A stretch of 64,000 nucleotides of DNA from Pirellulales bacterium. GTDB taxonomy: Bacteria > Planctomycetota > Planctomycetia > Pirellulales > S012-138. The stretch covers positions 37,526-101,525 of the forward strand of contig JALCBR010000006.1 in NCBI GenBank assembly GCA_028066245.1. The letters are read 5' to 3'. The stretch's first letter is position 1. Each line of letters starts with the position of its first letter. Position numbers and translations under genes: made by a program. This document shows positions 3,947-51,458 of this stretch, piece after piece. Below the pieces are notes generated by a model that had not been told where the DNA came from, searched no databases, and saw only the letters and a list, made by a program, of their open reading frames with translations.

Positions 3947-6250
3947 ATGGAAATGAATCAAGACGTGAATACATCTCACAGCGACAACTCGGTCTCCATG
4001 CTGAACCCGAAAGTTGTCGGCAAGGATTTGGTCTCCGGCGTCGTCGTTTTTCTTGTCGCCCTGCCACTTTGCCTGGGGATTGCACTGGCATCAGGTGCGC
4101 CGCTGATCTCTGGTCTAATTGCCGGCATCGCTGGCGGCTTGGTAGTTGGAATTCTCAGCGGTTCACACACCAGCGTCAGCGGGCCCGCAGCCGGGTTGAC
4201 AGCTATTGTCGCTGCTCAGATTACGGCGCTAGAGAGTTTTGAAGCGTTTTTAGTGGCTGTCATTTTTGCAGGCGTGATTCAGATCGTCCTCGGTTTGCTC
4301 AAGGCTGGCGGATTGAACGCCTTCTTTCCCAGTAGCGTCATCAAAGGACTTCTGGCAGCTATTGGGGTGATCTTGATTCTCAAACAGATTCCCCATCTTG
4401 TTGGGCACGACTCCGACCCTGAAGGGGCAATGTCATTCCAGCAACCCGATGCGGAAACGAATACGTTTACTGAGTTGCTGAACGTCTTCGGTGATCTGCA
4501 GTTGGGTTCGCTGGTCATTGGACTTGGCTCTGTGGTGCTCTTGCTCGTGTGGGACCGAATTAAGCCCCTCAAGCGGAGCCTGGTCCCAGCGCCGCTGATT
4601 GTCGTTGCGTTGGGTGTTGGCTTAGGATCATGGTTCGGACAGGTCGGCGGAAGATGGGTGATTGGCGCAAGCCATATGGTTGAAGTGCCCGTCTCTGAAT
4701 CCCTTTCGGGGTTTTTTTCTTCGCTTGCTTCGCCTGACTTTTCCGCCGTGTTGAATCCGGCGGTCTATCTGGCCGCGGTCACGATCGCCATTGTTGCGTC
4801 GCTGGAGACGCTCCTGAACTTGGAAGCAGTTGACCGGCTTGATCCGCGGCACAGGCATTCGCCGCCCAACCGCGAACTGATTGCCCAAGGAGTTGGCAAT
4901 ATCACTGCGGGCATGCTGGGCGGTTTGCCCATGACTTCCGTGATCGTCCGCAGTTCTGTCAACATCAGCACTGGGGCCTATACGCGGATCTCCGCCATCT
5001 TCCACGGGTTGCTGCTAGTGGTCAGCGTGATCATGTTCCCGGCCTGGCTGAATATGATCCCTCTCTCCTGCCTGGCCGCGATTTTGATCGTCACGGGATT
5101 CAAACTTGCCAGTCCCAAACTGTTTGTCCAAATGTGGAAGGGCGGCAGATACCAATTCATTCCTTTCGTCACGACCGTAAGTGTCATTGTGCTGAGGGAT
5201 TTGCTTGTCGGAATCATGGTCGGCCTGGGAGTCAGTCTGACATTCATCCTGATGAGCAATCTGCGCCGCCCTGTGCGCAAAGTCGTGGAAGGTCACGTTG
5301 GCGGCGAGGTCGTTCGCATTGAACTGGGTAATCAGGTCAGCTTCCTCAACAAAGCCGCGTTGGAACGCTCGTTGCGAGAGGTTCCAGACGGTGGGCACGT
5401 GTTGCTGGACGCTCACGGCTCGGACTACATCGATCCCGATGTATTGAGCTTGATCCGAGAATTTAAGGAAGAGGTTGGTCCGGCGCGAAACGTCCAAGTC
5501 AGCCTGCGCGGCTTCCGCGATAAGTATGAACTGGAGGATGAGGTCCTGTTCGTTGACTACACCACGCGAGAGCTCCAGCAGCAGCTGACGCCTGCCAAAG
5601 CTCTCCAGTTTCTCATGGATGGCAATGAGCGATTCCGTTCCGGAAAACGGTTGTCGCGAGACCTCGGCCGACAGTTGCGCGCCACATCGCACGGCCAACA
5701 TCCCATGGCCGTGATCCTCAGTTGCATCGACTCACGCACGCCGGCCGAAGTCATCTTTGACTTGGGCCTGGGCGATGTCCTCAGCGTGCGTGTCGCTGGC
5801 AACCTCATCAGCCCCATGATCCTGGGCAGCATTGAGTATGGTTGCAAAGTGGCTGGGGCAAAACTTGTCATGGTGTTGGGCAATACGCAGTGCGGAGTCG
5901 TGGCCACAGCCTGCGAGCACGCCGCGGCCAAGAAAGATCTTTCCCAGGACGGTTCGGCCAATGTTGCTTCCGTTATTCACGAGATCCAAGCCTCGATCGA
6001 TGGTGCGGAGTGCCACTCCGCAATGCAGGGAAGCAAGAATGAGCAAGCCGAGTTTGTTAATGGCGTCGCGACGAACAACGTTCAGCACGTTGTTGACTCA
6101 ATCCTTGAACAAAGTTCAACGATCAAACAAATGACCGAAGAGGGCGAGGTCGCTGTCGTTGGCGGAATGTACGATGTCAGCACCGGCAAGATTGACTTCT
6201 TCGTCGAGAATGGCTTGGTCAACGAAGAAGAGGTCGACGCGATGGCTTGA
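3947..6250 (+). CDS. SulP-family anion transporter fused to a beta-carbonic anhydrase
   Basis: The protein has 767 residues. Residues about 20-430 form a SulP permease with many hydrophobic helices, including the early stretch VALPLCLGIALASGAP. Residues about 450-540 resemble a STAS domain, and about 545-760 are a beta-class carbonic anhydrase. Fusions of this kind are known and are thought to couple bicarbonate or other anion uptake to CO2/bicarbonate interconversion at the inner membrane. In the anhydrase, Cys593, Asp595, Arg597 (CIDSRT) and Cys649 are present, but the usual GHTxCG histidine is Asn646 (GNTQCG, codon aat). That residue is normally the third protein zinc ligand, so activity may be lost or altered. 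Two ATGs lie six bases apart (3947, 3953); the ribosome site is weak. The gene stands alone. Confidence 0.93.
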   Translation: MEMNQDVNTSHSDNSVSMLNPKVVGKDLVSGVVVFLVALPLCLGIALASGAPLISGLIAGIAGGLVVGILSGSHTSVSGPAAGLTAIVAAQITALESFEAFLVAVIFAGVIQIVLGLLKAGGLNAFFPSSVIKGLLAAIGVILILKQIPHLVGHDSDPEGAMSFQQPDAETNTFTELLNVFGDLQLGSLVIGLGSVVLLLVWDRIKPLKRSLVPAPLIVVALGVGLGSWFGQVGGRWVIGASHMVEVPVSESLSGFFSSLASPDFSAVLNPAVYLAAVTIAIVASLETLLNLEAVDRLDPRHRHSPPNRELIAQGVGNITAGMLGGLPMTSVIVRSSVNISTGAYTRISAIFHGLLLVVSVIMFPAWLNMIPLSCLAAILIVTGFKLASPKLFVQMWKGGRYQFIPFVTTVSVIVLRDLLVGIMVGLGVSLTFILMSNLRRPVRKVVEGHVGGEVVRIELGNQVSFLNKAALERSLREVPDGGHVLLDAHGSDYIDPDVLSLIREFKEEVGPARNVQVSLRGFRDKYELEDEVLFVDYTTRELQQQLTPAKALQFLMDGNERFRSGKRLSRDLGRQLRATSHGQHPMAVILSCIDSRTPAEVIFDLGLGDVLSVRVAGNLISPMILGSIEYGCKVAGAKLVMVLGNTQCGVVATACEHAAAKKDLSQDGSANVASVIHEIQASIDGAECHSAMQGSKNEQAEFVNGVATNNVQHVVDSILEQSSTIKQMTEEGEVAVVGGMYDVSTGKIDFFVENGLVNEEEVDAMA

Positions 6251-8519: not shown

Positions 8520-9002
8520 GCCATCTAGCTCCAGTTGTCAATATTTCGCGGCGCGCCAACGTCGCTCGGGTGCGCATTCGCGCGCACAGCGAGCCGTCTC
8601 AGGCACCCCTGGTCCCGGCTCAGCCGATCTTGCGGCCGGATTTTTCCTAACTTGTTCTGAATACCCTAGTTGAAGTCAACGCCAAGCGGAAGCCGGCAAT
8701 TTCCGCGACAAGATCATTCGCGGAGAAATTTCGCGGAGAGAATATGGCGTCGTGTCAATTCGATCGACCATTCCATGCTCGACCTGGAATCTGATCCCCT
8801 AGAGAGATTTTCTTGTTGGCGTTCCGTCGCCGCCATGGGCGAACTCGGATTGCCGAGGTGTTGGACGACATCCGACTGGGAGCAGAGCGGAATCAACAAA
8901 GCGCTCGAAAACATCTTCTTGATCGGTGTTCTGTTCGTCGCCAGTTTCATCGCTTCGCGGACCCGCGATTGAATTGCCGCGGCGTTCTCGCACGCCCTGC
9001 TC
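8520..9002. other. Spacer upstream of accB, with homology to the flank of element copy 3
   Basis: No gene can be supported here. The reverse complement of about 8915-9002 is clearly similar to 51332-51420 beside copy 3; both contain CGACGAACAGAAC and CGGCAATTC. The repeated unit is therefore longer than its inverted repeats. The remainder, up to accB, should hold the accB promoter if the element insulates it from the upstream gene. Confidence 0.6.
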
Positions 9003-9237
9003 TCACGCGTACGGGCGAAATTGACATTGGTCAAATTTTTCCATCCTCCAGGGGGGTGGCGCAAACGCTTCACGCCCGTGCAATGGGCCAGCAACGGGAC
9101 CGCAAACATCACCGACAACCTTGACGTTACGTTCAGTAGCATGTTAACCGTCAACCTCTTATGGCGCTCGGCAGCGCGCAGGGCAGCACGAAACACCCCT
9201 CAAATTTGACCAATGTCAATTTCGCCCGTACGCCTGA
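9003..9237. repeat. Inverted-repeat (MITE-like) element, copy 1
   Basis: A 235-bp unit is bounded by 36-bp terminal inverted repeats (9003-9038 and 9202-9237) that differ at one position. Each arm contains GGGCGAAATTGACATTGG and the inner palindrome TTGACATTGGTCAA. The outward flanks CGCCCTGCT / AGCAGGGCG continue the pairing. Two further copies, both in the opposite orientation, lie at 33129 and 51097. No transposase is encoded, so a non-autonomous mobile element or large REP-like structure is the likely reading. It sits between the aminopeptidase gene and accB. Confidence 0.85.
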
Positions 9238-9355
9238 AAGCAGGGCGCGTAGGCTTCCATCGGGGGATGATTTGACAGGGCCATCCGCTCGGCGGAACAG
9301 TAATCCGGCAGGTGCTCTAGGTTTCAGATATGCCGCTGAGAACACAGCCTGCGCG

Positions 9356-32985: not shown

Positions 32986-33128
32986 AGCTAGTCAAAGAAA
33001 GTTCTTCAGGGCAAGGCTTGGAGCTGGGCCCTGCTGGAACTCTCTCGGCTCCACTGAACGAACGCTTGCGCGCCGCTTGCCCCGACGCCGTCAAGTCCAT
33101 CCCTCGTGGGAGCCCACACGCCATCCCC

Positions 33129-33362
33129 TCAGGCGTACGGCCGAAATTGTCATTGGTCAAATGTGGAAGGTGTTTCGGGTCTCCATGCGCGCTGCTGAGC
33201 GCCATAGGAGGTTGACGGTTAACATGCTACTGAACTTAACGTCAGGATTGTCGGCGATGTTTGCGGTCCCGTTGCTGGTCCATTGCATGGGTGTGAAGCG
33301 TTTGCGCCACCCCTTGGAAGTGGGAAAAACTTGACCGATGTTAATTTCGCCCGTACGCATGA
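33129..33362. repeat. Inverted-repeat (MITE-like) element, copy 2
   Basis: 234 bp, inverted relative to copy 1. The arms read TCAGGCGTACGGCCGAAATT and, on the other strand, TCATGCGTACGGGCGAAATT; they have diverged from each other at several positions, so this copy looks older. Homology continues outside the left arm for about 50 bp (a GGCGTGTGGGCT-like stretch before GGGATGGACTTGAC, read on the minus strand). It sits between the 3' ends of two convergent genes. Confidence 0.85.
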
Positions 33363-33390
33363 GAACCCGGCGCGCCAGGAACGCTGTGCC

Positions 33391-50150: not shown

Positions 50151-51020
50151 ATGCCTTTTGACACGTCGCAATTCTTGCTGGCATTTGTCATCCCCGGGGT
50201 CGCCGCCGCCATTGCCGGCGCGTTGTGGCGATGGCCACCCCGCGAGGAGCCGGGTTTGGGCAGCTTTCTCACCGGCCTGGTCCTGGCAGGTGGTTTTGTC
50301 TTTGGCTGCTGGGCACTGGGAAGATTGGAATGGATGCCGGAGCCATTTGGCAGCGGTTGGGTTCCGTACGCTGCAGTGAGTGCCGTGCTGGTCAGCGGGT
50401 TCAATGTCTTGCTCGGTGGCGTCGCCGGGCGGGTATTGCAAGCGTTGCTTACGCTTGCCTTCGTGGTGGCGGCCGCATGGTTGATGGTTCGTGATTCTGC
50501 AAGTCAGGCAGACTTCCGTTGGTGGGCAGTCGGAGCGCTGGCGGGAGCAATGGCTCTGACATGGTGGACGGGTGAGTTTGCTTGGCGACGACAGAACGGC
50601 CGCTTTCCCGTGTTGTTGAGCCCAATTCTGCTTGGCATGATTGCCGTGGTGACAATGTTCAACCTGGCGAGCACTTCATCATTAGAAATGTGCAGCGTGG
50701 CTGTCGCCGTCATGACCGGTGGAGCGCTGTTCGCCGGTGCGAACCAGAAATCTGTGGCCAAGCCAGCGATGGCAATCTTCTCCGTTGCTTACTGCGGGTT
50801 GTTGTACGCTGCTTATGCCGGACTAACCAACGCGTACAAGAGCGAATACGTCTACCGCAACCTGGCAACGCTGCTGGCGGCCGTTTCGCCGTGGCTGATC
50901 TTGCTGTATGGCTTTTGGCGGGATGAAGAAAAGCGCTTGCCATGGAAACGAGGATTGTTGCTGACTGCCGTGATCATCACACCAGCTTTGGCCGGAATGG
51001 GATTGAGTTTTCTCGGCTAG
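50151..51020 (+). CDS. Hypothetical polytopic membrane protein
   Basis: The protein has 289 residues with about eight hydrophobic helices covering nearly the whole length (e.g. FLLAFVIPGVAAAIAGALW, AVSAVLVSGFNVLLGGVAG). No catalytic motif is recognised. It starts 40 bp after the YceI gene and could be co-transcribed. Role unknown. Confidence 0.75.
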   Translation: MPFDTSQFLLAFVIPGVAAAIAGALWRWPPREEPGLGSFLTGLVLAGGFVFGCWALGRLEWMPEPFGSGWVPYAAVSAVLVSGFNVLLGGVAGRVLQALLTLAFVVAAAWLMVRDSASQADFRWWAVGALAGAMALTWWTGEFAWRRQNGRFPVLLSPILLGMIAVVTMFNLASTSSLEMCSVAVAVMTGGALFAGANQKSVAKPAMAIFSVAYCGLLYAAYAGLTNAYKSEYVYRNLATLLAAVSPWLILLYGFWRDEEKRLPWKRGLLLTAVIITPALAGMGLSFLG

Positions 51021-51096
51021 CGCCTATTGCTTGTATTCCGCTCGCCCAGACGGACGTTGTGAAGTCATCCCGCAAAGGAAGCCGCGCGCCAGACTC

Positions 51097-51331
51097 TCAC
51101 GCGTACGGGCGAAATTGACATTGGTCAAATTTGGGGGGTGTTTTGTGCCGCCCTGCGCGCTGCCGAGCGCCATAGGGGGTTGACGGTAGACATGCTACTG
51201 AACTTAACGTCAAGGTTGTCGGTGATGTTTGCGGTCTCGTTGCTGGTTAATTGTTGGGCATGACGCGTTTGCGCCACCCCCCTGGAGGCTGGAAAAATTT
51301 GACCAATGTCAATTTTGCCCGTACGCCTTGA
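51097..51331. repeat. Inverted-repeat (MITE-like) element, copy 3
   Basis: 235 bp, same orientation as copy 2. The left arm begins TCACGCGTACGGGCGAAATT; the right arm reads TCAAGGCGTACGGGCAAAAT on the other strand. Its right flank matches the flank of copy 1 for about 90 bp, and its left flank shares GGCTTCC and GGGATGACTT with the others. It lies between convergent genes. Confidence 0.85.
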
Positions 51332-51458
51332 GGCATGGCGCGGGGGTAGCGCCACGGCAATTCCATCACGCGCCCGCAAAAGCGATGGAACTGCCGACGA
51401 ACAGAACGCCAAGAAGGTAGGACAAGCCGTTGGCAGCCGCACGATCAGGTATGACTGA

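Follow-up and report, generated by a model that had tools for sequence, protein, structure and literature searches.

A high-copy repeat family often docked in stop codons in a Pirellulales genome, very probably an IS630-derived MITE with an invertible core

The 235-bp inverted-repeat unit that occurs three times in the window (the whole stretch of 64,000 nucleotides that was analysed) is only the middle, or core, of a larger element of about 520 bp. The repeats very probably constitute a MITE family that is derived from the IS630 family and targets TA/CTAG. There is good support for docking of the element in stop codons, and support also for a core that is invertible and in part conserved. An IS630-derived MITE family is of a known kind; the stop-codon docking and the flippable core go beyond a plain MITE.

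The copy number and the extent of the element were determined in the 4.94-Mb draft genome, which consists of 186 contigs. At three mismatches or fewer, the centre of the core gave 66 matches genome-wide and the arm gave 209, while the reversed control gave 0 in both searches. The 209 arm matches imply about a hundred copies, and the family that the preliminary description had reported as three copies has ~100 or more. Profiles of the left part, the core and the right part were built from fetched copy regions, and the alignment comprised 69 complete cores with flanks (71 cores were extracted). In the complete layout, a left part of ~90 bp is followed by the 235-bp core and a right part of ~200 bp, the last being shortened in many copies. 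The 22 copies with both ends range from 400 to 529 bp and are mainly 513-525 bp long.

Alignment of the ends revealed sharp borders of the form C-TA-GAGC...GCTC-TA-G (CTAGAGC and GCTCTAG). The left border reads ...C-TA-GAGC(A/G)CCTGTCCGATTGCTGTTCC... and the right border ...AACGTCAACAAGAAAAGCGCTC-TA-G..., and the short terminal inverted repeat of the element is GAGC(G/A)C. A terminal TA was seen at 49 of the 74 left ends and 19 of the 34 right ends. The genome-wide search and alignment that had been proposed as a check thus produced many copies with defined ends. The earlier judgement that the repeat does not fit a sharp-ended MITE no longer holds, as the TA-GAGC...GCTC-TA ends sit outside the interval first inspected. 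The recommended search for target duplications yielded none longer than the TA, with nothing beyond 2 bp exceeding shuffled pairs.

Many contigs end inside the core (C10, C88, C101, C102, C105, C131, C161, C185 and others); the repeat limits the draft assembly and accounts for many of its breaks. Element copies also occur in pairs, either adjacent to each other or in a tail-to-tail arrangement, at L070 (C23:22.3-22.9 kb), L045 (start of C88) and L063 (end of C164). Two very short derivatives, L147 at ~1502-1600 (C19:45507) and L144 (C8:112309), consist of element ends only and are apparently internal deletions.

The copies within the window are as follows.

8802-9317, minus strand: copy 1, complete element GAGC...GCTC, with TA at 8800-8801 and 9318-9319 on either side
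8793-8997, minus strand: right part of copy 1 (nhmmer profile match)
8999-9233, minus strand: core of copy 1, with inverted arms at ~9003-9038 and 9202-9237 (nhmmer, 275.7 bits)
9235-9324, minus strand: left part of copy 1 (nhmmer profile match)
33073-33365, plus strand: copy 2, composed of a left-part remnant (33073-33131) and the core (33133-33365) (nhmmer)
51020-51411, plus strand: copy 3, with left end CTAGCGCC and TA at 51018-51019 (nhmmer)
51101-51329, plus strand: core of copy 3 (nhmmer, 264.1 bits)

The end sequences of copy 1 are CCCCTAGAGAG at 8796 and GGTGCTCTAGG at 9311. Copy 2 has lost its outer ends, and its right part was undetected by nhmmer. Copy 3 carries GGCTAGCGCC at 51015; its left part is followed by the core and then by a right part at 51336-51411, and a search for its outer right end did not find one. 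The profile matches on the minus strand for copy 1 and on the plus strand for copies 2 and 3 bear out the three homologous inverted-repeat copies at the positions originally given, copy 1 being reversed relative to the other two. The similarity of the interiors is likewise confirmed by local alignment, far above chance: copies 1 and 3 are 85% identical across 378 bp (E about 1e-100), and copies 1 and 2 are 83% identical across 322 bp, again with copy 1 reversed. Two further observations stood in part. The palindrome ascribed to every arm, TTGACATTGGTCAA, occurs exactly in all four arms of copies 1 and 3, whereas the two arms of copy 2 have TTGTCATTGGTCAA and TTGACCGATGTTAA in its place. Homologous flanks do exist, but their extent was understated: complete copies have ~90 bp of homologous flank to the left of the core and ~200 bp to its right, and in copy 1 these flanks span 8793-8997 and 9235-9324.

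Protein coding was considered for the repeat and rejected, the forward frame giving a dN/dS-like ratio of 0.95 with no codon-position pattern; about half of the core copies contain a one-base gap. The peptides read outward through the arms had been attributed to the inverted arms alone, and the codon-position variation and dN/dS-like ratios, which carry no coding signal, agree with this. An RNA function was rejected too: the interior folds no better than column-shuffled alignments, and the covariation term is penalising on both strands. At Rfam gathering scores there was no match to the repeat, only one tRNA in the window.

The preliminary description had noted that no transposase is present. 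This is correct for the copies themselves but not for the genome, in which broken IS630-type copies with the same ends occur elsewhere. A direct search of the genome for DDE_3 (PF13358) returned two loci, both frameshifted. One of these remnants (C16:19012-19619) measures 605 bp and is bounded by CTAGAGC and GCTCTAG. Another, on contig C166 (locus L143, 1100-1541), was found by the left-end search and has a transposase C-terminus (APYSPDLNPIELALAKLK...) between element-type ends, CTAGAACGCCTGTCCGATTGCTGTTCCGCT on the left and ATGCTCTAG on the right; its match to DDE_3 in Pfam is below threshold (E 0.0014). Decayed IS630-type transposase copies were seen at four places, namely C166, C16:19012-19619, C60:38994-39456 and C121:14786-15007, and among them those on C166 and C16 clearly have MITE ends. 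The suggested search for a transposase sharing the ends of the repeat found these ends on broken DDE_3-type remnants. IS630-like elements in other genomes of the order are 1004-1033 bp long with ends CTAGAGCGCATC, CTAGAGCGCTTCTC and CTAGAGCGGTTT; those of related genomes start with CTAGAGCG, and CTAGAGCGCTTCTC resembles the right end of the present element, CTAGAGCGCTTTTC.

High copy number, a length of ~520 bp, the lack of a coding signal and terminal inverted repeats in common with a transposase-bearing remnant are the attributes of a MITE, and all were found here. TA targets are used by IS630-family elements (PMC2170065), and IS630 favours the TA of CTAG, according to the title of Tenzen and Ohtsubo (1991) as cited in PMC2170065. 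Parentage by an IS630 transposase, with TA as the duplicated target, would be consistent with these ends. The draft assembly yielded no intact transposase, only broken DDE_3 copies, and for this reason the family looks old and is probably no longer mobile in this genome, although the draft might hide an intact copy.

The position of the element relative to genes was evaluated by reading all three frames into each identifiable end, 74 left and 34 right. At left ends, 19 ORFs of at least 150 codons were in the TAG register, while the remaining two frames had 0 and 1. The corresponding counts for right ends were 7, 2 and 0, and the 2 off-register cases are TAG/TAA stops at which the terminus was misplaced by one base. 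Under the strict register, 26 of the 29 long ORFs overall end exactly at the terminal TAG. An ORF of at least 110 codons closed by a TAG or TAA composed of the target TA and the first element base was found at 30 ends, representing 29 loci. As a baseline, stop codons in the window contain 6% of the non-coding TA and 13% of the non-coding YTAR. Copy 3 closes a gene of the window in the same manner.

50151-51020, plus strand: gene ending at copy 3, with C-terminus LSFLG* and a TAG stop at 51018-51020 made up of the target TA and the initial G of the element

Insertion thus seems to hit stop codons and to restore them. Ten of the stop-codon genes were tested, and those with strong curated matches extend almost to the end of the model; ThrC (threonine synthase), a lactate/malate dehydrogenase, HisN and a ligase-associated exonuclease are among the near full-length genes that end at the element. 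Judging from these near full-length homology matches, the genes are probably not truncated by the insertion. A long ORF also ends at one terminus in two IS630-like copies of relatives and in the C16 remnant. By simple ORF calling, the neighbours of 61 copies are convergent at 27, tandem at 31 and divergent at 3, a strong bias of the copies to gene 3' ends. A TA-targeting transposase, the initial G and selection against harmful insertions suffice for this distribution, with no special targeting of stop codons needed, and the CTAG target preference adds to the stop-codon pattern.

The core is bounded by inverted arms of 33-50 bp and is inverted between its flanks in 10 of the 69 aligned copies; as in an invertible segment, both orientations occur between inverted repeats. 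The original proposal, in which an inner core and an outer zone make up a mobile or recombining structure, is supported by the ~100 copies, their defined ends and a core that lies both ways round with respect to the outer zone. Descent of the inverted cores from one lineage was rejected: they have no diagnostic sites, and constraining them to a single clade gave a p-AU of 0.0165, which favours independent inversions. The inverted cores and the homogeneity of the family could in part be products of bubble popping or of wrong inter-arm paths in a draft of 186 contigs, many of which end inside the core. This is unlikely, as inverted copies lie in mid-contig with both flanks (e.g. C67, C83, C89 and C116) and the orientation ratio of about 85:15 is not random.

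An improbable account of the two orientations is that the core is a separate MITE that inserted, either way round, into one constant position within an older IS630-derived MITE. The 10 inversions among 69 copies would fit such nesting, as would the divergence of the core interior from consensus, 10% vs 15-20% for the flanks. However, nearly all complete cores, both the 69 aligned and the 71 extracted, are joined to a recognisable outer part on one or both sides. Coreless copies are few (L045, L141, L144, L145 and L147) and their junctions mainly deletion-like; the junction of L045 and L145 is common to two sites only. The spacers within the core equal the flanks in divergence, which is unexpected for late insertion of the whole core. 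The core was also rejected as an independently mobile unit, no cores being found outside the outer element.

Conservation within the core is uneven. In the family alignment, variation is 2% in the left arm, 4% in the right arm and 8.5% in the inner 128 bp, against 19% and 14% in the two spacers, 18% in the left flank and 17% in the right flank. Sites varying in fewer than 3% of copies make up 80% of the left arm, 52% of the inner block and 1-4% of the flanks. The spacers beside the arms contain hypervariable stretches (core positions 43-53 and 189-191) that have three or four alleles and a variability at least that of the flanks. A neutral MITE does not account for arms and an inner block that are 2-9% variable vs flanks and spacers at 14-19%. 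We tentatively read this pattern of blocks as pointing to constraint rather than to conversion of the entire core or its late insertion; the spacers, however, are rich in G/C runs and may be hypermutable.

Concerted evolution, in which gene conversion through the arms copies the core between elements and thereby both homogenises and flips it, would bear on the core alone and does not conflict with a MITE; we regard it as rather doubtful. Many core sites have two alleles, and all four combinations occur in 189 of 190 pairs of common sites. Linkage in the core decays within tens of bases, the common two-allele sites are almost unlinked, and the inversions do not form one clade, all of which speak for conversion. 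Low long-range linkage is, however, found likewise in the flanks. Conversion should also have homogenised the spacers beside the arms, yet these are 19% and 14% variable with flank-like third-allele rates, an argument that hypermutable spacers would make non-decisive. A third-allele test across the whole core did not separate it from the flanks. A case for recent gene conversion built on bimodal site variation and low linkage was not established once arms, spacers and inner block were considered apart, and was weakened further by the linkage in the flanks.

The same block-wise conservation of arms and inner block vs flanks, together with the strong gene 3'-end bias, would be in keeping with a host function, for example a protein-binding or 3'-end element of REP-like type in which selection keeps the arms and inner block. 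Such a function is compatible with a MITE origin and is possible, if on the unlikely side. It is opposed by an interior that has no conserved RNA fold, coding signal or Rfam match and by the absence of the element from all relatives searched, and the 3'-end bias is already covered by TA/CTAG targeting and selection against harmful insertions. The more specific proposal concerns a transposon-derived, stop-codon-docking repeat with a flippable core, in which selection would keep the core arms and the 128-bp inner block in ~100 copies as binding sites for a host protein; to this we give little weight. An IS630-derived MITE is the reading that we retain for the family itself.

A search of 57 relatives, among them 4 from the same family, found no copy of the element, and none of these is near enough for intergenic DNA to be aligned; for both reasons no empty orthologous site could be shown, which counts against the MITE reading. 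Two short matches of about 30 bp in relatives (E 4e-4 to 9e-4) seem to be due to chance. An exact 31-bp core match was absent outside this genome in a collection of genomes from 84,980 species, viral contigs had no exact arm match, and plasmids and phages had no similarity to the repeat. The closest relatives of the ferrochelatase encoded in the window are mainly from Planctomycetota, chiefly Pirellulales-type genomes, and no convincing copy of the element was seen at 80 loci around these relatives. At 3947-6250 the window also contains a fusion of a sulfate-permease-like transporter with a carbonic anhydrase domain.

Among known repeats, those of the REP/RAYT type are short (20-40 bp) palindromes that are GTAG/CGTC-tagged and depend on a Y1 transposase. 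The present element, at ~520 bp, with CTAGAGC ends and DDE-type remnants, is not of this kind. The ends and sequence of Correia/NEMIS, ERIC, BOX and other bacterial MITE-like repeats are not known to be related to those of the present element. These repeats resemble it in being short, non-coding, high-copy, hairpin-forming and intergenic (PMC2229807, PMC3049150). RUP, the repeat unit of pneumococcus, is mobilised by IS630-Spn1 (PMC3049150, PMC2229807) and is likewise a non-autonomous intergenic repeat of ~100 copies with a TA target and ends in common with an IS630-family element (PMC3049150, PMC2229807). However, RUP is a simple, AT-rich repeat of 107 bp, whereas the element of ~520 bp described here has a nested inverted-repeat core in both orientations and inserts in stop codons. 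IS630 of Shigella and ISY100 share the TA target, and IS630-like elements with CTAGAGCG ends exist in the same bacterial order; unlike these, the present element encodes no transposase.

We propose that an IS630-family transposase, a Tc1/mariner-type DDE enzyme, moved the non-autonomous element by cutting and pasting it into TA dinucleotides, with YTAR/CTAG preferred. Where the TA of a TAG or TAA was hit, the initial G of the element would restore TAG at the left end, and the right end, being symmetric, would do the same for a convergent gene. Stop-restoring insertions would be harmless, and because of this the copies would be found at gene 3' ends, in many cases precisely within the stop codon. 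In some copies the core may then have been flipped by recombination between the arms or by template switching from one to the other.

IS630-derived MITEs are already known, and what is unusually clear here is how such a family avoids harm. A TA-targeting element with an initial G would rebuild a stop codon on both strands, which suggests a rule for accumulation in compact genomes. The flippable core, with its arms and inner block conserved and its spacers free, raises the question of whether selection or gene conversion acts on dispersed repeats.
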